A DNA stretch of 64,000 bases from Jaenimonas drosophilae (taxonomy: Eukaryota > Euglenozoa > Kinetoplastea > Trypanosomatida > Trypanosomatidae), in contig JASAON010001632.1 in the NCBI GenBank assembly GCA_030849065.1, forward strand, positions 62,001-126,000, given 5' to 3'. A model generated the notes under the pieces. That model did no database searches and was not told the origin of the DNA. It was given only the letters and a program-made list of their open reading frames with translations. This document shows positions 13,863 to 63,860 of the stretch, in pieces; the stretch's first letter is position 1, and each line of letters begins with the position of its first letter. A program made the position numbers and the translations under genes.

Positions 13863-15521
13863 CTACTTCATCAATGATCTCCAGTTCATTGGGCGGAAGA
13901 GATGGAGACCCTCAAAGTCTGTGGTGACCACCATACCAGGAACCTGCGCATGCCAGTGTGCCTCCTTGGGGTGCGTGAGGCCCTGATGCTGAAACATGAG
14001 CTGATCAGGAATGCCCGTCAGGTCGGAGCGGCCAAAGAGCTCGCCCACCACCTCCTGCTCCTCGGACGGATCGCGTTCCAGACTCAGATCCCACAAAGTG
14101 CACTGGCCATCATCACCTGTCACGGAGAGCACACTTTCGTTGTGTGCGGAGAACTCGACGGAGGTGATGCTCCCTGTGTGCCACGGCAGACGCTGAATCG
14201 GCTCGGACGCTGCACTGGCATTGGTGAGGTGGCGCAGATCCCAAATAGACACCGCCCCGCTATCCGCGCCTGTGACGAGCAAGTGAGACGCCTGCCGCGC
14301 GCGGTTCCAATCAGCCACGTTGATGTCGGTGGGATCGGCCTGCCAACTGAGTTTGCAGCTGCGCATATCTCGAGTATCCCACACCTCCACCACACCTCCG
14401 GCTCTCGCACTAATAAGAACATCCGCCTGCGTTGGGCTCCACTGGATCTCCTCAATGGAGTGTTGGTTGGATTGACTACTGGCGATGCTACGCCAACGTC
14501 CATCCTCGGTTGGCTGCCACACAAAGAGGGAGCCATCGCAGTCTCCAGACGCGAAGGTGTTGGCGGTGATTGGGCTCCAGTCCAGGCCGTAGCCCTCGGT
14601 GCGGTGGGAGGTGGATGGGGTGCAGAACTTAAGAGGGGCGGAGACCTTCTTAGGCTCCTTCCAGGCAGCGGCCTGCTCCTTCGTCCAGTTGGCAAAGTCA
14701 GCCAGAATGCGGGTGTCCGTCTCGAGGTCAAACACCTGCACATGGCCGGCATCAGACCACACCGCCACCAGCTGCGGGCCACCCGATGGGTTGTTATGCG
14801 GGGAGCAGCGTACGCGGTTGGCCGTTCCATGATGGGCGATGCTTCGGTGGTGCACGATGGGCTCGCCATCGTTCACCTCCTCTTCATCCTCGTCCTCGTT
14901 GTCCTGGCTTTCATCTCCATCACCAATGTAGCTGTCCTCACTGTCTTCATCACTCATCACATCATGACGAGTGCGGCAAATGTTGCTGACACGAAGTACT
15001 ACCAAATGGTTCTTGGACTGCTCATCTGCCTGTGAGCCGCACACGAGCATCATGGATAAGGGGTACTTGGTACGATTGGCACCATCAGCATCATGTACCA
15101 CGTCAAAGGAGAGACAAGGGTACTCTGTGCGGAGCTGAAAGAAGGAATCGTAGGCCTTGTTAGAGTAGGCCAGCTGACCCGCCACATCACCTTCCCCACT
15201 CTGATCCCTGCGCCACACCATGGCGGCGTCTTTGCCGTCATCCTCGCCCTCATCCTGGGCCGTCTGGAACGTCACGGACTTGAGACCCTTGGTGAGCTCC
15301 GCCATGGACTCGTTCTGCAGCTCAGCGTACTCATCGTCATCGTCCATAATGACTTCCTCTTCCACGTCATCTTGCACAATCAGCTCGCCATCGCTGCTGG
15401 ATGCATCCTCCCACTCGTCCTCTGCGTGAGCTTCTTCGTTGGCCTCAGTGGCTTCCTTACGCTGGCGCGCTTCCGGCACCTCATCTGCCTCCCTGGTGCT
15501 TCGCTTCATTCCCTTCTTCAT
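13863..15521 (-). CDS. GRWD1: GRWD1/RRB1-type WD-repeat ribosome assembly factor
   Basis: Encodes 552 residues from ATG at 15521; an in-frame upstream start would add 20 hydrophobic residues absent from the family. GRWD1 (yeast Rrb1) is a chaperone-like factor for ribosomal protein uL3 in the nucleolus. The N-terminal about 120 residues are very acidic (runs of Glu and Asp), as in the family. Residues about 125-200 match the CAF1C/RBBP4-like N-terminal helix region (YPCLSFDVVHD), and then come WD repeats with clear GLDWSP, IQWSPTQADVLIS, VEVWDTRD, SIWDLRHL and TLWDLSLERD elements. A second acidic insertion lies near 210-235. An opposite-strand frame across this gene (13902-15035) is a shadow. 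The upstream minus-strand CT repeat at 15613-15633 is a likely splice tract. Confidence 0.94.
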   Translation of the reverse strand: MKKGMKRSTREADEVPEARQRKEATEANEEAHAEDEWEDASSSDGELIVQDDVEEEVIMDDDDEYAELQNESMAELTKGLKSVTFQTAQDEGEDDGKDAAMVWRRDQSGEGDVAGQLAYSNKAYDSFFQLRTEYPCLSFDVVHDADGANRTKYPLSMMLVCGSQADEQSKNHLVVLRVSNICRTRHDVMSDEDSEDSYIGDGDESQDNEDEDEEEVNDGEPIVHHRSIAHHGTANRVRCSPHNNPSGGPQLVAVWSDAGHVQVFDLETDTRILADFANWTKEQAAAWKEPKKVSAPLKFCTPSTSHRTEGYGLDWSPITANTFASGDCDGSLFVWQPTEDGRWRSIASSQSNQHSIEEIQWSPTQADVLISARAGGVVEVWDTRDMRSCKLSWQADPTDINVADWNRARQASHLLVTGADSGAVSIWDLRHLTNASAASEPIQRLPWHTGSITSVEFSAHNESVLSVTGDDGQCTLWDLSLERDPSEEQEVVGELFGRSDLTGIPDQLMFQHQGLTHPKEAHWHAQVPGMVVTTDFEGLHLFRPMNWRSLMK

Positions 15522-29040: not shown

Positions 29041-29676
29041 TTACCAAACCAGATCAAATAGGCGTTGAACCCTGTCTTGAACTCGGAAGATGTGAATTCC
29101 AGTGATTCTCGGAAACACAACTATGAAATACCACGCAATATGACCAACTAACATCGATGTGATCCCCAACGTTACGGCACCGTCAGATTTGTAGCCCATG
29201 AGTACTAGCATCGATAGTGGGACAACCCACATGGGTACTTCGACAGCCCACATCATCACAGCGCGGTTGTCAGGGGCTAACCGACAGAACAGGTATAACA
29301 ACGCAGTGATAGATGGGTAAGCCATGAATGGTGTGTCGAACACTTGCATCATTCGCAGCACAACGAGGCTTCCATTGATGAACAGTAAGACGAACAGGTA
29401 GTCTAAAGGACGATTGCCGAATGATTGCTCTTCAATCATGCTACTAATCGCATACATAGTTTGAATTTGAAAGAAGCTGCGCATGTTGAAATCCCCATGG
29501 AACAAGAAGCTTGATACCAAACGCCAATACTGCTTGTGATCCAGCACAAATGAAGGGACCAGCATCATCTGAAATGAGTTTACGATGCCGCATGCCGTGA
29601 GGATAAGAACTACGATGGTAAGGGAAACAAGACCTGTTGTCACAGGAGGACCACGTAGTGCATGAAGCCGTTCCAT
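29041..29676 (-). CDS. Derlin, ER-associated degradation membrane protein
   Basis: Encodes 211 residues from ATG at 29676; the three codons upstream begin with TTG. Derlins are inactive rhomboid relatives that help move misfolded proteins out of the ER to p97. The start has the family pattern PPVTTGLVSLTI, and residues about 45-80 contain QYWRLVSSFLFHGDFNMRSF, typical derlin WR-L loop text. Further membrane helices follow in the expected number (five to six). The C-terminal segment FPRITGIHIFRVQDRVQRLF is short, and I do not see a clear SHP p97-binding box. Relevant to the PUB-bearing proteins in this window, though not next to them functionally by necessity. Confidence 0.9.
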   Translation of the reverse strand: MERLHALRGPPVTTGLVSLTIVVLILTACGIVNSFQMMLVPSFVLDHKQYWRLVSSFLFHGDFNMRSFFQIQTMYAISSMIEEQSFGNRPLDYLFVLLFINGSLVVLRMMQVFDTPFMAYPSITALLYLFCRLAPDNRAVMMWAVEVPMWVVPLSMLVLMGYKSDGAVTLGITSMLVGHIAWYFIVVFPRITGIHIFRVQDRVQRLFDLVW

Positions 29677-29876
29677 TAGCAACAAGTATTCGTCACAACC
29701 TCTATGGCGACAGCTAGAGTAAAGCAGTTAATGTATTTCTCCATGTGAGAAAACAAAAATGACAAAAGTGAAGGAAGGTATCGTAGGTGGACCTGAAGAG
29801 GGCAGACAATGAGGACAAATTGAAATAACCGTTGATGCAAATGAAATATGAATGGGCATGTGTACGTGTGCGACCC

Positions 29877-35521: not shown

Positions 35522-36445
35522 TTATTCACGACCTACGCGCTTGCCATAAATAAAGAACGGTGCTTCGTCGTTCCAATCAGCTGAAAAGTGAGCAGCTGAG
35601 ACGAGCTTTAAGGAGGAATCGCGCAGTTTTGCTTCACTTAGTTTTCTGGATGTAATTACGCATTGGATCGATGGAACTGACGCGACAACTTCAGAGAAGC
35701 GCTCCATTAAGTTGTCATCAAACATCCATGAGTGTGAAAAAACAACATTGACCATTTGCTTGTCCAGAAGGGTAGCACAGTCGACTAAGTCCATTTCGTA
35801 CCAAAGAGCTTCCTTTCCAGCAAAAACATCTGGGTAGTATTGCTTCGCATTTTGAGTTGCTTGTTGAGACGCACGGATTCTTGAGGGAATTACGTCCACC
35901 CCCACCGTTTTTTCGCAGTGGGTCTCCGCTAGCACTTGCAGACAGACATTACCCACACCACTTCCAATATCGCAGAATACGATAGACTTTTCCAACTCTG
36001 GGAAACAAGTGTCGTGCTTCACAAGCACACCAGTACCAGTATCAGCACCAGCTTTCAAAACAGGCAAAATGGCACGGGTCCACATTTGGCGCACACCATT
36101 GCAATCCACAATTCCAATTTGCGCAAAAACTGTGGGCTGAACCGTTATGTGTTCCTCGCCCAAATCCAACTCCCCTCTTTCTTCATACTCGGAGGAGAGA
36201 TCTTTGTAAATTACTCGCTGAATGTCATCAAATTTTGTTCGAAGCTGCGATATACCGTAAGGCACATAGCTGGCTTTGATCGTGTGACTTCGATATGAGT
36301 TCATTGAAGTTGCGATTCCTCCAACCACAATTCCCCCAGCGATACCCTTCATCACCAATCGAAATACTTTGGGTTTTAGGACGATATTCAGCCCCACTAT
36401 AGAACCTGCCATTGCCGCACCGAACAGTAGGAGGTTGGACGCCAT
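35522..36445 (-). CDS. DOT1-like class I SAM methyltransferase with N-terminal membrane segments
   Basis: Encodes 307 residues. The SAM site DIGSGVGNVCLQV (about 158-170) has the DOT1-type DxGxGxG text. It is followed by VGVDVIPSRI (second strand, acidic end), a VNVVFSHSWMFDDNLMERF segment where DOT1 enzymes have NNFAF...L..RF, and VITSRKL (family IVSSK). Trypanosomes have nuclear DOT1A and DOT1B that methylate histone H3 K76. This one differs: residues 4-23 and about 33-48 are hydrophobic and Gly-rich (LLLFGAAMAGSIVGLNIVL, then GIAGGIVVGGIA), suggesting one or two membrane passes, and the VYGE motif of DOT1 is not seen. I infer a membrane-bound, possibly mitochondrial, protein-lysine methyltransferase. 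First gene of the minus array, beside the strand switch. Confidence 0.82.
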   Translation of the reverse strand: MASNLLLFGAAMAGSIVGLNIVLKPKVFRLVMKGIAGGIVVGGIATSMNSYRSHTIKASYVPYGISQLRTKFDDIQRVIYKDLSSEYEERGELDLGEEHITVQPTVFAQIGIVDCNGVRQMWTRAILPVLKAGADTGTGVLVKHDTCFPELEKSIVFCDIGSGVGNVCLQVLAETHCEKTVGVDVIPSRIRASQQATQNAKQYYPDVFAGKEALWYEMDLVDCATLLDKQMVNVVFSHSWMFDDNLMERFSEVVASVPSIQCVITSRKLSEAKLRDSSLKLVSAAHFSADWNDEAPFFIYGKRVGRE

Positions 36446-37034
36446 TCGGAGCCTGGGGTGTCCTTGTCTAAATGTAGACCTGTAGACCTATGGTTCTAGG
36501 AAGATTTGCGGAGAGGGGGGGGATCGTCATATGAACTAGGCACTTCCTCGTATTTCATTGATTTGCCCGCAATCATGCCCAAGCTTAAAGATAGGGCATT
36601 CGCGCTGCAAGGTGTGCCCGCTGCCGTCCGGGGGGGGGGTGAGGTGATGGCTTCCCTTCGCTTCCTCTCACGGTTTGCGCTTTGACTTGCGGGGCCTGCG
36701 CGGGGGGGGAATGAATTTTGACCATGCTCTCTTTTTTTGTTTGCCTGATTGTGCGCTGGGGGGGATTTAGTGAGGCGCGCCGCACATCGCTACGGCGGGT
36801 GGGATTTGCTGCTTCACTTTTTCCATCGTGACATTTGTAATTCAGTGCCTTTGTGTGCCACTGCGTGTTTGTGGTGTAATTTACTGACCCCTCTTAGAAA
36901 ACCTGAGTATGTGGGTTGTGCCTCCAAACAACCCGCAGCACACTGATCAACACTGTGAGATGTGAGAGTGACATGCGGCGCTGCCTCATTTTCCCCCTCA
37001 CACTTGTTTTCTTGTAAGTGAAGCAAGTGAGTCA
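36446..37034. promoter_or_regulatory. Divergent strand-switch region, likely RNA polymerase II start region
   Basis: Left neighbour starts at 36445 on the minus strand and right neighbour at 37035 on the plus strand. In trypanosomatids such divergent regions are where polycistronic transcription begins in both directions. It contains four long G-runs, all on the plus strand, at 36515-36522 (8), 36630-36639 (10), 36702-36709 (8) and 36758-36764 (7). A tandem pair of TGTAGACC lies at 36473-36488. No TATA box or tRNA was recognised. Bases 36990-37015 contain a pyrimidine stretch that could be the acceptor tract of MDP-1. Confidence 0.8.
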
Positions 37035-37595
37035 ATGGCTGTGCCGCGAGTTATAATTTTTGATCTGGATGGTACACTTTGGAATCCTGAAATGTACCAA
37101 CTTTGGGGTGGTGGATCTCCCTTCAAAAGAAACCCCAAAGACAACTCAAGCATGATCGACCGGTCCGGAGAATCCGTAAGGCTTATCGGTGAAACTCGTG
37201 AAGTTCTTGAGCAGCTCGCAAATAATGAGAAATGGAGTTCAACGTACCTCGCTATTTCATCGACGTGCGATGAGCCAGCCTGGGCGATGGAGCTGCTTCG
37301 TTTGTTTCAGTTTACTAGAGCGGGAAAGATTGTTGAAATGGGGGCACTATTTGGTAATTTGGTTGAGATTTACAAGTCAAATAAAGCTCAGCAGCACCGG
37401 AAAATTCTTGAGAAGGTTCGCGTCGATGATCCCACGATTGAATTTTCAGACATGCTATTTTTTGATAATCAGCGAGATAACATTCGTAATGTGGAACCAC
37501 TAGGCGTCACGTGCTGCTACTGCGGAGATGGAATGACTCCCGGGACATTTGAAAGGGGGATTGCTCTTTGGCGAAAGAACAGCTCATCACTGTAA
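37035..37595 (+). CDS. MDP1: Magnesium-dependent phosphatase 1 (MDP-1), HAD family
   Basis: Encodes 186 residues from ATG at 37035. MDP-1 is a small HAD phosphatase thought to act on protein tyrosine and on sugars or glycated proteins. Motif I is IIFDLDGTLWNP with both aspartates, motif II is in YLAISSTCDEPAWAMELL (family SRTxEPxWAxELL), the conserved Lys lies in the IYKSNKAQQHRKI stretch, and motif IV is MLFFDNQRDNIRNVEPLGVTC. The last Asp pair of motif IV is DN rather than DD, a modest variation. It lacks any cap domain, as MDP-1 should. First gene of the plus-strand array. Confidence 0.92.
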   Translation: MAVPRVIIFDLDGTLWNPEMYQLWGGGSPFKRNPKDNSSMIDRSGESVRLIGETREVLEQLANNEKWSSTYLAISSTCDEPAWAMELLRLFQFTRAGKIVEMGALFGNLVEIYKSNKAQQHRKILEKVRVDDPTIEFSDMLFFDNQRDNIRNVEPLGVTCCYCGDGMTPGTFERGIALWRKNSSSL

Positions 37596-59283: not shown

Positions 59284-59321
59284 TATCTCCTACTCCGTTT
59301 GCTGTTCTTGTTTGTGTTCAG
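59284..59321 (+). promoter_or_regulatory. Polypyrimidine tract and AG acceptor of the stand-alone PPPDE gene
   Basis: TATCTCCTACTCCGTTTGCT continues T-rich and ends GTTCAG with AG at 59320-59321. The 5' UTR would be 16 bases and ATG 59338 the first start. Confidence 0.7.
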
Positions 59322-59337
59322 ATTGACTTGCTTCACC

Positions 59338-59808
59338 ATGACAACGGAGGTGTATCTCTACTGCTACGATCTTACCAATGGATTGGCGCGCAGTCTCAGC
59401 CCAATGCTACTAGGAAAGCAAGTGGAGGCAATCTGGCATACATCCGTCGTGGTATTTGGGAGTGAGTTCCTGTTTGATGGCGGTGTGGGTGTTCTTCAGG
59501 AAGGGATTGAGACCACCAAGTTTGGCAAGCCCCTCAAGAAGCAGCTACTTGGCAACACCGCCAAGTCCAAGGAGGATTTCCTCCAATGGGTGAAGCAGCA
59601 GAAAACGGCAGGCTTTGGCCCAGACGATTATAACCTGCTTAACCACAACTGCAACGACTTCACTCAGGCTGCATCGCAGTTCCTCCTCAAGACGGACATT
59701 CCTGCGGAGATCCGCGAGATGATTCCATCGCTGCTCAACACACCTTTTGGCCAGATGCTACGACCAACGCTTGAGCAGATGTCAGGCTCCTCTGCTCCAA
59801 GAAAGTGA
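59338..59808 (+). CDS. PPPDE (DeSI-like) isopeptidase
   Basis: Encodes 156 residues from ATG at 59338, the usual length of a single-domain PPPDE protein. DeSI enzymes are papain-fold peptidases that remove SUMO or ubiquitin. Seen: VYLYCYDLTNGLARSLSPML, the catalytic His in AIWHTSVVVFG (H34), the GGVGV turn, and the catalytic Cys in LLNHNCNDFTQAASQFLL (C105), followed by IPAEIREMIPSLLNTPFGQM, where the family has P..I..LP...L.TP.G. Both catalytic residues are intact. The closest relative visible is the first domain of the next gene, with Cys at the same number and the same closing segment, so these look like a tandem duplication. The tail ends SSAPRK. Confidence 0.95.
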   Translation: MTTEVYLYCYDLTNGLARSLSPMLLGKQVEAIWHTSVVVFGSEFLFDGGVGVLQEGIETTKFGKPLKKQLLGNTAKSKEDFLQWVKQQKTAGFGPDDYNLLNHNCNDFTQAASQFLLKTDIPAEIREMIPSLLNTPFGQMLRPTLEQMSGSSAPRK

Positions 59809-60239
59809 CAGTGCTACTACCAACCTTTTCTCCTTTACACATCAAATGTGGATGCGGTCGGACGAACAAAGATGCACATTGGTGACCTTTCTGCTGAGAT
59901 TTGGCTGCGACACAACGCTTGTGGTGCCTGTATACCCCTGCACCAATGTTGATGGTTATCCCCGTTGCCGGTGTCGCTGAGAATCGTTATGTATGTTTGT
60001 GGGACCTTTGCACGCCCTGCACCAATGTATCGGTTCAGATCTTGTGAGGGTTATCACTCCTCAAAATGTTGTTCCTCATCTGTTCTTCTTTAATTCCTGT
60101 CGAGTAGTTTCCATGGAGAAGAGCGTACACCAGCCCCATATAATACTGAAACTTTGCTCTCGAAAATCTTCGTTAGCACGAACTCACGAACAGAGGAACT
60201 TATCCACGTAGCGGAACTGCGCTGAACTTGACAACAGTG
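59809..60239. other. Spacer between the two PPPDE genes
   Basis: No gene seen. It contains a perfect 14-bp direct repeat CCCTGCACCAATGT at 59936-59949 and 60015-60028. A pyrimidine-rich stretch at about 60076-60100 followed by GAGTAG is a plausible acceptor for the gene at 60240. Confidence 0.5.
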
Positions 60240-63200
60240 ATGTCGGAAGTGGTGCTGTACTGGTACGATATCACCCAGGGCATGGCGCGCAATTTGAGCC
60301 CGATGTTTCTTGGCCGCCAACTGGAGGGTGTCTGGCACACATCCATTGTTGCCTATGGATGTGAGTTCTACTTCGTTGGAGGCGTTGGAATCTTGCGTGA
60401 TACCACACCAGGTGCAACACGTTTTGGTGTGCCCTTCCGACGCAGTCCACTGGGCCGCACGACCAAAACCGCAGATGAGTTTTTGCGGTGGACTGTGGAT
60501 CAGCGAGGCACCAATTTTGGTCCGTGGAGCTACAGCCTCCTCACGAACAACTGCAATCACTTCACACAGGCTGCCTCGCAGTTCCTACTTCAGATGGACA
60601 TTCCAGCAGATATTCGTGACATGATTCCAAACCTGCTGAGTACCCCACTCGGACAGATGCTGCGTCCCACTCTGGAACGTATGACGAGCATGATGGAGGG
60701 GGCAGCCTCCAGCGTGGGACTCAATCCTGCGACGCGGTCCATGGATGTGCATACGACTGGATCACCAGTCAATGTGAGTCAGCCACCGGCGACCCCCGGG
60801 ACGGGAGGGCTTCTGAGCCTCCGTAGTGGGCTGAGCTCCAGTGAGGAGGATGACTTGAGCCTAGCCCTGGTGATGTTGGAGTCCAACGAGCTCGTCGCAG
60901 ATGGAAAAGTGGAGGGCTACCAAAACACGTTGCTTGCCCTGACGACCCTCATGACGGTGTGGCAGAACATCATGGATCACCCCACCGAGGCAAAGTATCG
61001 TGGGCTCTCCACCTCCAGCGAGACCTATCGCACGAAGATTGCGCCACTCGAGGACTTTGGTGTGGTGGATCTTCTCCATCTCGCGGGCTTCCGTATTCGG
61101 CCACACGCGTCCGGCAACGGTGGTCAGCAGTGGGCGCTCTCCGACAACGACGGGAGTCTGCCGGTGTTGCAGCGATTGACGTCGGAGGTGGAGGGACTCA
61201 TCAACAACATGGAGTGTTCCCTTGCTGTTGCAATGAGCCTAGCCGAGGAGAATGCTCGCGTGGAGGCAGAGAGGGCGGCTTCCGCACCAAGTGTGTTAGA
61301 GTATTTTCTTTCTCCCGTTCCGGAGGACTTCACGCCACTCCACGTTGGTTCTGAAAACGGCGCGCCGCTCTTTTCCATCCTTGTTGACGAGGTTCACGGC
61401 AGCCGACACTGCTTCGGCAAGTGCCGTTTTGTGAGTGATCGCCACCTCGTTGAGGGCTCCCCAACGCAGATTGAGGCCTACTACTGCAGTCCAGACGGAA
61501 AGGAGGTGCGTCTACCAAGTGGATGTGCCTACCGCCTCTTGTGCGTGCGCAAAGGCTGCGAGGATCAGCTTCTATGGCTACCTTCCTCCATGATTGCCTG
61601 CTCGCCCTCGGTGGAGGACTTCATGTATCGTGGATATGGACGATTTGGTGTGGTTCGAGCCCCCATTCGGGGAAGCGTGCATCCTGGCGTACGGGAGCCA
61701 GCGGGACGTTGTGTGGTGCCGTATGGAGGAGAGGCACGTGTGGTGACGGAGGTGGCACAGGTGCTCTGCGAGCGCGCATGCATGCCCGAGGAGGTTCTCC
61801 GAATCGCCGACGAGCTCTACGACGGCGAGCACCGCTTAACGGAGTGGGAGCATCAACAGGGCATGTGCCCAATGGGCAGCTTCGATGAGCTTCTGTCATG
61901 GGAGCCGCCGACATTGAGTGATGCACAAACGGTGTGCCCTCTCCATCCACGAGCTCCGCGCCGCGGGAACTCCGGAAGTAGCGCCAAGGTACTCCTCTGC
62001 CACGACATGCGTGGTGGCTACTTGGAAGGTGACGCACCCTTCTTCACGTGCAGCTCGAGCATGGGTGGTCCTGTCGTGGATGGTTCCTACACCCTTCAAC
62101 ATTGGTCCTCGGTGGATGCGTTCGTCTACTTCAGCCATCATCGCGTGACAGTTCCTCCGAGGGAGTGGGTCAGTGCTGGCCATCGCCATGGGGTTCCGGT
62201 GCTTGGCACCATCATTGTGGAGGGCGGAGCCGGCGAGGCGGAGTGCGACTTCATGCTCATTGACGCACAACGCATGGCGCGCATTGTGGAGCAGCTCGTT
62301 CGTTTGTGTGATCATCACCACTTTGATGGGTACATGCTCAACATGGAGTCTCCAATGGACGTCACTCTGGCTCAACGTTTGCCTGCCTTTTGTTCCATGC
62401 TTCGGCAGAAGCTAAATGAGTCTGCAGCTGCAGGTACGATGAGGTCGGTGGTGTGGTACGATGCCGTCACCATTGACGGTAACGTCTTCTACCAGAATGC
62501 ACTCACCCTCAAGAACAAAGCCTTCTTTGATGTATGCGACGGCATCATGACCAACTACTTCTGGAACCCGATGCACATTGCTCTTTCCCGCACCGCAGCC
62601 GCCAATCGCCCTGAGGATGTGTTTGTTGGTGTTGATGTCTTTGGACGCCGCATGTTTGGTGGCGGTGGCTACAACACAAGCGTGGCTGTAGAGAATGCTG
62701 TCCGTGGCGGCCTCTCCGTGGCGCTCTTTGCGCCAGGATGGAGTATGGAGGTTGAAGGTGGTGGCTCACGTGAGAAGTTTCTGCGCTCCGACGCCCGCTT
62801 GTGGTCGAAGATGTTAAAGCACCTCGCCGCGCCTCACACACTCACGTTGGAGGCGGAGACGTCGCTGCCCGCGTGGACCGCCTTCTCCTCGGGGATTGGA
62901 CGAGGTCCATTTCGGGTTGCGGGGAAGTCAGTGACGTCGGCGGGGAGCCACTGGTGCTCATTGAGCTCCGCGCACACATTCCTCCCGCCTCGTCGGCCGC
63001 TTCTGGCGGAGTATGGCCAGAAGGCAGACGACGATGAAGAGGGAAAGAAGGGGAGTGAGTGTTTTGGTCTCCCATTCTCCGGCCCTGGTGTTGCGGTTGG
63101 CGATGTACTGCTCGCTCGCTGGGATGCTTCTACTGCCTGGTATGGAGATCGCTCGCTGACAATGGAGCTCCCACCACACTGCTTGGGTAGGGTTATGGAT

Positions 63201-63860
63201 GTGCGTGTGCTACTGCCAACTAGCGCAGCTCAGGATCTCGTCGTGGACGTTGCATGGAGGGTGAGTGGCGATGGCCGTCATCCGGCGCTGAAGGCAACGC
63301 TGGAGCGCAATGATCCCAACCGTGGAACCTCCGCACACCGTGCGGAGGTGGATCTCGTTGAGCTGGATGACGTGCTCTACGCCGACCAGCAGTGGGAGGT
63401 GCGGCGGTACACTCTGGAGAGTTGGAGTCCATCATCAGAGGGTGCGGAACCAACCGCGCTGCGTAGCCTTTTACTGTATAATCAACGGTCAGATTGCTCC
63501 ATGCGTTGTGTTGTAGGGGCGATGGCAGTGTCTTTGGTTCCTCACAATGAGATTCATGATTCCAGCAGTGCACTTATTCCAGGGCCGTTGGAGCCTGCAA
63601 CACAAGTTGTTCTGCACCCTACGCTGCGATCAACGGAGTGGATGATGGAGATGGAGCTTCCATCCATGGAGGTTGCAACGCGCGTGGCAGTTTTTGCTGA
63701 TGTGATTGCGGCAACCGAGGGCGAGGAAGTTGGCGTACCTGTGCGGACCTTCATGGGGGAGCACATTCTGCCTTCCACGGTGGATCGACTACAGGTTCGG
63801 CTTGTTGCCCCATCCACTAGTCGCGTCAGTAGCGCTCACTTCTGCCGTCTTAGTTTGTAG
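60240..63860 (+). CDS. PPPDE-PUB-DM9-GH85 fusion: cytosolic endo-beta-N-acetylglucosaminidase with isopeptidase domain
   Basis: Encodes 1206 residues from ATG at 60240. Domains in order: (1) PPPDE isopeptidase, about 1-150, with catalytic H33 (VWHTSIV) and C105 (TNNCNHFTQ). (2) PUB domain, about 225-300, NTLLALTTLMTVWQNIMDHP, EAKYRGL, ending VVDLLHLAGF. Weak UIM-like helices lie at 202-215 and 325-337. (3) Two DM9-like repeats, about 360-430 and 467-515, the second with RAPIRGSVHPG and CVVPYGGEA. (4) GH85 ENGase, about 584-860, with LLCHDMRGGYL, DAFVYFSHHRVTVPP, HRHGVPVLGT, the catalytic FDGYMLNMES (N701, E703), WYDAVTIDGN, FFDVCDGIMTNYFW, then C-terminal beta-rich modules. ENGase cuts the chitobiose core of N-glycans. 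No signal peptide, so cytosolic. I infer a p97-linked deglycosylase/deconjugase for ERAD glycoproteins. No frame break. Confidence 0.93.
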   Translation: MSEVVLYWYDITQGMARNLSPMFLGRQLEGVWHTSIVAYGCEFYFVGGVGILRDTTPGATRFGVPFRRSPLGRTTKTADEFLRWTVDQRGTNFGPWSYSLLTNNCNHFTQAASQFLLQMDIPADIRDMIPNLLSTPLGQMLRPTLERMTSMMEGAASSVGLNPATRSMDVHTTGSPVNVSQPPATPGTGGLLSLRSGLSSSEEDDLSLALVMLESNELVADGKVEGYQNTLLALTTLMTVWQNIMDHPTEAKYRGLSTSSETYRTKIAPLEDFGVVDLLHLAGFRIRPHASGNGGQQWALSDNDGSLPVLQRLTSEVEGLINNMECSLAVAMSLAEENARVEAERAASAPSVLEYFLSPVPEDFTPLHVGSENGAPLFSILVDEVHGSRHCFGKCRFVSDRHLVEGSPTQIEAYYCSPDGKEVRLPSGCAYRLLCVRKGCEDQLLWLPSSMIACSPSVEDFMYRGYGRFGVVRAPIRGSVHPGVREPAGRCVVPYGGEARVVTEVAQVLCERACMPEEVLRIADELYDGEHRLTEWEHQQGMCPMGSFDELLSWEPPTLSDAQTVCPLHPRAPRRGNSGSSAKVLLCHDMRGGYLEGDAPFFTCSSSMGGPVVDGSYTLQHWSSVDAFVYFSHHRVTVPPREWVSAGHRHGVPVLGTIIVEGGAGEAECDFMLIDAQRMARIVEQLVRLCDHHHFDGYMLNMESPMDVTLAQRLPAFCSMLRQKLNESAAAGTMRSVVWYDAVTIDGNVFYQNALTLKNKAFFDVCDGIMTNYFWNPMHIALSRTAAANRPEDVFVGVDVFGRRMFGGGGYNTSVAVENAVRGGLSVALFAPGWSMEVEGGGSREKFLRSDARLWSKMLKHLAAPHTLTLEAETSLPAWTAFSSGIGRGPFRVAGKSVTSAGSHWCSLSSAHTFLPPRRPLLAEYGQKADDDEEGKKGSECFGLPFSGPGVAVGDVLLARWDASTAWYGDRSLTMELPPHCLGRVMDVRVLLPTSAAQDLVVDVAWRVSGDGRHPALKATLERNDPNRGTSAHRAEVDLVELDDVLYADQQWEVRRYTLESWSPSSEGAEPTALRSLLLYNQRSDCSMRCVVGAMAVSLVPHNEIHDSSSALIPGPLEPATQVVLHPTLRSTEWMMEMELPSMEVATRVAVFADVIAATEGEEVGVPVRTFMGEHILPSTVDRLQVRLVAPSTSRVSSAHFCRLSL

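Follow-up and report, generated by a model that had tools for sequence, protein, structure and literature searches.

A trypanosomatid GH85 ENGase that carries PPPDE, PUB and DM9-like domains in a single reading frame

The window analyzed here is a 64,000-nucleotide stretch of the Jaenimonas drosophilae genome. One uninterrupted frame on the + strand runs from an ATG at 60240 to a stop codon at 63860 and encodes a protein of 1206 aa. The locus contains the following features.

60240 to 63860, + strand: single gene encoding PPPDE, PUB, DM9-like, GH85 and C-terminal beta domains, 1206 aa.
60246 to 60671, + strand: PPPDE / Peptidase C97 domain, residues 3-144.
60336 to 60338, + strand: codon for His33, catalytic by family.
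60552 to 60554, + strand: codon for Cys105, catalytic by family.
60846 to 61208, + strand: PUB domain, residues 203-323 by fold and 231-294 by Pfam.
61293 to 61778, + strand: DM9-like lectin fold, residues 352-513.
62079 to 62900, + strand: GH85 catalytic domain, residues 614-887, Pfam 2.6e-83.
62340 to 62348, + strand: codons for Asn701-x-Glu703, catalytic by family.
63060 to 63851, + strand: C-terminal beta domains, residues about 941-1204.
59338 to 59808, + strand: separate stand-alone PPPDE gene, 156 aa, Pfam 1.5e-31, 58% identical to the fused PPPDE.
60072 to 60104, + strand: probable spliced-leader acceptor site for the fused gene, a pyrimidine tract of 18/20 followed by AG, judged by pyrimidine count only.
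61302 to 61325, + strand: acceptor-like site within the frame, between PUB and DM9, equal in strength to the upstream site and also judged by pyrimidine count only.

Pfam domain calls were compared with predicted structures, and fold matches were obtained for all four domains. The GH85 profile matched at 2.6e-83 with 280.4 bits against a curated cut-off of 22.2, and the protein has the barrel plus beta-sandwich layout of Endo-A. The PPPDE / Peptidase C97 domain has the profile, the fold and the His/Cys dyad. Catalytic residues were aligned in 35 rows consisting of the window protein and 34 relatives. Each of the 32 rows that cover the region has His33 and Cys105; P0021, P0022 and P0060 have gaps there. 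The Asn of the catalytic Asn-x-Glu pair (Asn701) and Tyr740 are kept in 34/35 rows, P0059 having Q at both positions, and Glu703 and Asp741 are invariant (35/35). Retention of these residues suggests that both enzymes are probably active, and family membership makes glycan cutting and isopeptidase activity the likely functions. The earlier note had described a single frame joining the four domains with H33, C105, N701 and E703 intact, and the profiles, folds and residue alignment bear this out, with GH85 and PPPDE detected in the same 1206-aa product by profile searches. The conserved catalytic residues and the family-wide architecture rule out a chance frame. A model of residues 1-545 has a pTM of 0.48 and does not fix the relative placement of the domains. 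Outside the window gene the genome gave no GH85 match. The acidic helix formed by residues 200-214 was considered as a ubiquitin-interacting motif and dropped; Pfam reports no such motif before the PUB domain in 21 family members at E values up to 10, and the helix lies mostly inside the PUB fold (203-323). Neither a literature search nor passages of PMC10318531 supported an S-depalmitoylase activity for PPPDE.

The predicted structure of residues 352-513 adopts the DM9 fold, and the Pfam DM9 score of the sequence is 13 bits, below the cut-off of 26.2. The oyster DM9 mannose lectin CGL1 was the reference; the DM9 stretch gave no match to it by sequence, and the identity is 19%. The CGL1 mannose-site residues Asp22, Lys43 and Glu59 were compared by eye only, and on this basis the Lys of FGK and the Glu of GKE look kept and Asp22 is replaced, so that the site looks only partly conserved. 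Four Trypanosoma members, those from T. cruzi, T. grayi, T. vivax and T. melophagium, reach just 990-1039 aa and have no DM9 call, so this domain seems dispensable.

Database searches place the protein in a family. The first search returned 52 proteins, of which P0001-P0022 form the family; the remaining 30 are ENGases or GH85 proteins in which neither PPPDE nor PUB was called. PPPDE, PUB and GH85 were called together in 20 of P0001-P0022 and in 10/12 of the proteins added by a second search (P0053-P0064), or 30/34 sequences overall. Four sequences fall short: P0021 and P0022 lack both PPPDE and PUB, P0059 lacks a PUB call, and P0060 from T. congolense begins, by eye, inside the PPPDE domain and is probably a cut gene model. 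With divergent seeds, a third search brought in P0072 and P0073, which have all three domains, and P0074 and P0075, which have PPPDE, GH85 and DM9 and a PUB below the cut-off (E of 0.011 and 0.0017). Wherever an organism name is given the members are trypanosomatids, and these include Leishmania, Leptomonas, Novymonas, Porcisia and several Trypanosoma, T. cruzi among them. The fused protein is a genuine multi-domain ENGase, conserved and unusual, and is not peculiar to one genome. No protein under the name T. brucei appeared in the three family searches, each of which scored about 8000 candidates sharing most words, which makes absence from them weak evidence. Tb927.11.10370, a "glycosyl hydrolase-like protein" listed from a TbCul-A pull-down (PMC12816148), may be the T. 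brucei family member.

A GH85 tree of 42 rows places the window protein and the named trypanosomatids within an 18-row group (99/99). P0061, P0063, P0064, P0072 and P0075 fall outside this group on its side, as does P0076, a GH85-only long branch. The position of P0073 and P0074 on the opposite side is weakly supported.

The stand-alone PPPDE gene adjoins the fused gene directly upstream. A tree of 37 PPPDE domains, which draws its stand-alone genes from this species only, joins the two as sisters (93/89, bootstrap not settled), and the fused PPPDE has 62% identity to some fused domains of other genera, higher than the 58% to its neighbor. The stand-alone gene may be a local duplicate, which we treat as a lead only. 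Three more PPPDE matches occur elsewhere in the genome, the open frames that hold them being 901, 249 and 583 aa long. The presence of a separate PPPDE next door indicates that the domain can act alone, and P0071 has PPPDE, a ubiquitin-like domain and PUB without GH85, so PPPDE and PUB also co-occur outside the ENGase family. Both observations would fit enzyme domains that were joined only historically and act on unrelated substrates, the PPPDE cutting ubiquitin-like tags or thiol-labile bonds elsewhere. Retention of the combination in 30/34 members plus P0072 and P0073 speaks against this account, and we rate it improbable.

Acceptor-like sites lie upstream of each gene, at 59321 (16/20) for the stand-alone gene and at 60104 (18/20) for the fused gene. 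Five acceptor-like tracts of at least 16/20 occur inside the fused frame, a number that makes the count weak evidence, and the best of them is at 61325 (18/20, with AG), as strong as 60104. The L. tarentolae model P0021 begins, by eye, at this internal site, which together with the site leaves room for a short product lacking PPPDE and PUB. By alternative trans-splicing one frame would then give rise to a shorter DM9-GH85 enzyme as well as the full-length protein, and the absence of PPPDE and PUB from P0021 and from the contig protein P0022 would agree. We hold this to be very unlikely: the next in-frame ATG after 61325 is codon 451, which lies inside the DM9 fold, and the gene models of P0021 and P0022 may themselves be broken or truncated.

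The PUB domain has both the profile and the fold of its family, and its closest relative is the PUB of PNGase, in predicted fold and also in sequence, where the single-sequence match is weak (E about 0.02) and the family profile gives 1.2e-4. The pocket for the p97 tail is described as YxxN(x)9Y + K/RxxN with Y38 and Y51 of PNGase named (PMC6995525); R55 is named elsewhere (PMC4017264), and the N41 and N58 positions were derived from spacing in the alignment. The equivalents of Tyr38, Asn41, Tyr51, Arg/Lys55 and Asn58 in the window protein are V240, N243, Y253, S257 and S260, and thus two of five are kept. The same positions were counted in 33 family PUBs, with P0059 included despite the missing Pfam call and without P0021 and P0022, which have no PUB: Tyr38 is present in 0/33, Asn41 in 22/33, Tyr51 in 29/33, Lys/Arg55 in 3/33 and Asn58 in 0/33. 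The carboxylate clamp positions are replaced family-wide, with Ser in 26/33 and 29/33. Four other PUB frames in the genome, one of which scores below the Pfam cut-off, have Asn41 in 4/4, Arg or Lys55 in 4/4 and Asn58 in 2/4; Tyr38 is found in 0/4 and Tyr51 in 0/4 (F, R, F, F). None of these four PUBs has either Tyr, which suggests that such organisms can perhaps do without both; what then sets the family apart is the loss of the carboxylate clamp.

These data bear on the proposal in the earlier note that PUB docks on the C-terminal tail of p97 as in animal PNGase, so that glycans and ubiquitin-like tags are trimmed during extraction. Part of the setting is present: the PUB fold is predicted to be PNGase-like, Derlin and a UGGT-type domain were found in the genome, and its p97 ortholog ends in DDLYS, as does Leishmania VCP (PMC7403338). 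Asn41 and Tyr51 are widely kept in the family, and the window protein retains the Tyr51 that the other four PUBs lack along with the first Tyr. Docking through the known pocket is not supported, because Tyr38 and Asn58 are missing throughout the family and Arg/Lys55 almost throughout, and those same four PUBs keep Arg/Lys55, two of them with Asn58. The Leishmania VCP interactome names three PUB proteins, LinJ.09.1060, LinJ.11.0920 and LinJ.36.0140, and none of the terms PPPDE, glycosyl hydrolase and acetylglucosaminidase is matched in its main text, where the fused protein does not turn up (PMC7403338). By their names the three genes are on chromosomes 9, 11 and 36. In five Leishmania/Porcisia assemblies the contigs that carry the family gene measure 1.41-1.61 Mb, sizes that we take to fit chromosomes 30-33, and the fused protein is probably not one of the three. 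As first stated, p97 docking is doubtful, and we regard the full extraction scheme as unlikely.

With much of the known pocket gone in trypanosomatids, the partner of PUB or its binding mode probably differs. The domain may have switched partner, keeping its fold as a dock for another protein in the way that the SPATA2 PUB serves CYLD, with no direct tie to p97. The family-wide replacement of the clamp in a retained fold would fit such a switch, as would the pocket of the deep relative P0073, which keeps Asn, Tyr, Arg and Asn; P0071 has Asn, Tyr, Lys and Asn. No other partner is known, and we advance the switch as a tentative possibility.

The genome was also searched for PNGase, as had been proposed. 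A PF01841 search gave no candidate, and an 88-residue PNGase core gave no match, a negative that counts for nothing without a known positive. Rad4, which has a related fold, was found. STT3, expected in such a cell, was likewise missed in the assembly by profile and by motif pattern, and GH38 mannosidase had no match there. STT3 is known in T. brucei (PMC5421464). Genes are missed either by the assembly or by the first-look filter, so we do not claim that PNGase is absent, and the N-glycan pathway of the organism is only partly seen. The window protein itself gave no match to a transglutaminase-like catalytic core at E up to 1. That one cytosolic kinetoplastid enzyme couples N-glycan release with ubiquitin/SUMO removal on retrotranslocated glycoproteins, replaces PNGase and is recruited through a new trypanosomatid-specific PUB pocket is, taken as a whole, an unlikely statement.

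The explanation we prefer is a kinetoplastid cytosolic GH85 ENGase with N-terminal PPPDE, PUB and DM9 domains that most likely acts on N-glycoproteins exported from the ER. The cytosolic location is suggested by a product that opens directly with the PPPDE domain. The two activities may be coupled on an ER-derived substrate. The GH85 barrel would cut the chitobiose core and leave one GlcNAc on the protein, and the DM9 and C-terminal beta domains may grip either the glycan or the client. The PPPDE domain would strip that client, or a partner, of ubiquitin or a ubiquitin-like protein. Through PUB the enzyme would be anchored to some member of the ubiquitin-proteasome machinery, the p97 tail being a possible former tether. 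We give this explanation in its entirety about an even chance of being correct.

Most of what is known about the stripping of sugars from misfolded glycoproteins ahead of the proteasome concerns PNGase. Here a deglycosylase other than PNGase is joined to a probable ubiquitin/SUMO isopeptidase, which would make a two-step coupling directly testable. The altered PUB pocket is a test case for a change of partner with the fold retained. Leishmania and T. cruzi both retain the fused protein, and no PPPDE or PUB was called in the animal ENGases returned. The PUB and glycohydrolase additions are absent from the human host according to a 2018 survey, which proposes the T. cruzi Peptidase C97 DUBs Q4DM33 and Q4DJ21 as drug targets and notes their PUB and glycohydrolase domains in one sentence (PMC5976635). 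Database entries named endo-beta-N-acetylglucosaminidase / PPPDE / PUB domain protein exist in Leishmania and Trypanosoma. The earlier note's statement that it knew of no ENGase with either PUB or PPPDE is overtaken by these entries and that sentence. No functional work on the PPPDE-PUB-GH85 combination was found in the open-licence PMC literature.

The window protein shares its GH85 catalytic domain with the cytosolic ENGases of other eukaryotes and differs from them in its N-terminal domains, a PPPDE or PUB call being present in 0/36 other ENGases (P0023-P0052, P0065-P0070), which mostly carry PF25529. DeSI-1 and DeSI-2 (PPPDE2 and PPPDE1) are about 170 aa in the PDB and lack the other domains. 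Animal PNGase / NGLY1 likewise has a PUB beside a cytosolic deglycosylase, but its transglutaminase core is absent from the window protein and the pocket residues differ. A close parallel is in T. cruzi, where PPPDE, PUB and glycohydrolase occur together in Q4DM33/Q4DJ21 as they do here. The T. cruzi protein P0057, which may correspond to Q4DM33/Q4DJ21, is a family member, and the named Trypanosoma members lack the DM9 call, unlike the window protein with its DM9-like fold. The architecture is widespread and already recorded in print and in databases.

Among ORFs of at least 300 aa, 14 of the 15 lying before 36.5 kb of the window are on the minus strand, and all nine located after 37 kb are on the plus strand. 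The single plus-strand exception before 36.5 kb (ORF 13902-15035) overlaps a minus-strand ORF. The interval 36445-37035 is a divergent strand switch. The individual features discussed here are as follows.

29041-29685, minus strand, Derlin (DER1) family gene (match G000:C341:91104-91649 in the genome assembly of this organism)
35522-36445, DOT1-like methyltransferase gene, adjoining the strand switch
59338-59808, plus strand, stand-alone PPPDE gene, the immediate upstream neighbour of the fused gene
61302-61325, pyrimidine tract followed by AG, resembling a splice acceptor, within the frame of the fused gene
L005:1161-2882, elsewhere in the J. drosophilae genome, further PPPDE protein (574 aa) whose C-terminal region is long

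The PPPDE domain of the fused gene is 58% identical to the upstream stand-alone PPPDE gene, and a rough tree places the two as sisters. P0071, a separate protein of 618 residues, combines PPPDE, ubiquitin-like and PUB domains with no GH85. The acceptor-like site falls between the PUB and DM9 parts of the fused frame. Judged by eye, P0021, a gene model of L. tarentolae that lacks PPPDE and PUB, starts near the counterpart of this site.

Family member P0059 matches the GH85 profile only in part. In the family alignment, Gln replaces both the catalytic Asn and a conserved Tyr of its GH85 domain, and the protein is possibly inactive or else misaligned at these two positions.

Searches of the G000 genome returned no match to the STT3 oligosaccharyltransferase (profile or motif search) or to a GH38 mannosidase. 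These missing matches reflect either assembly gaps or genes passed over by the search filter. Unlike STT3 and GH38, a UGGT-type domain and Derlin were both found in this genome. Derlin is a component of ERAD, and its gene lies within the same 64-kb window as the fused gene.
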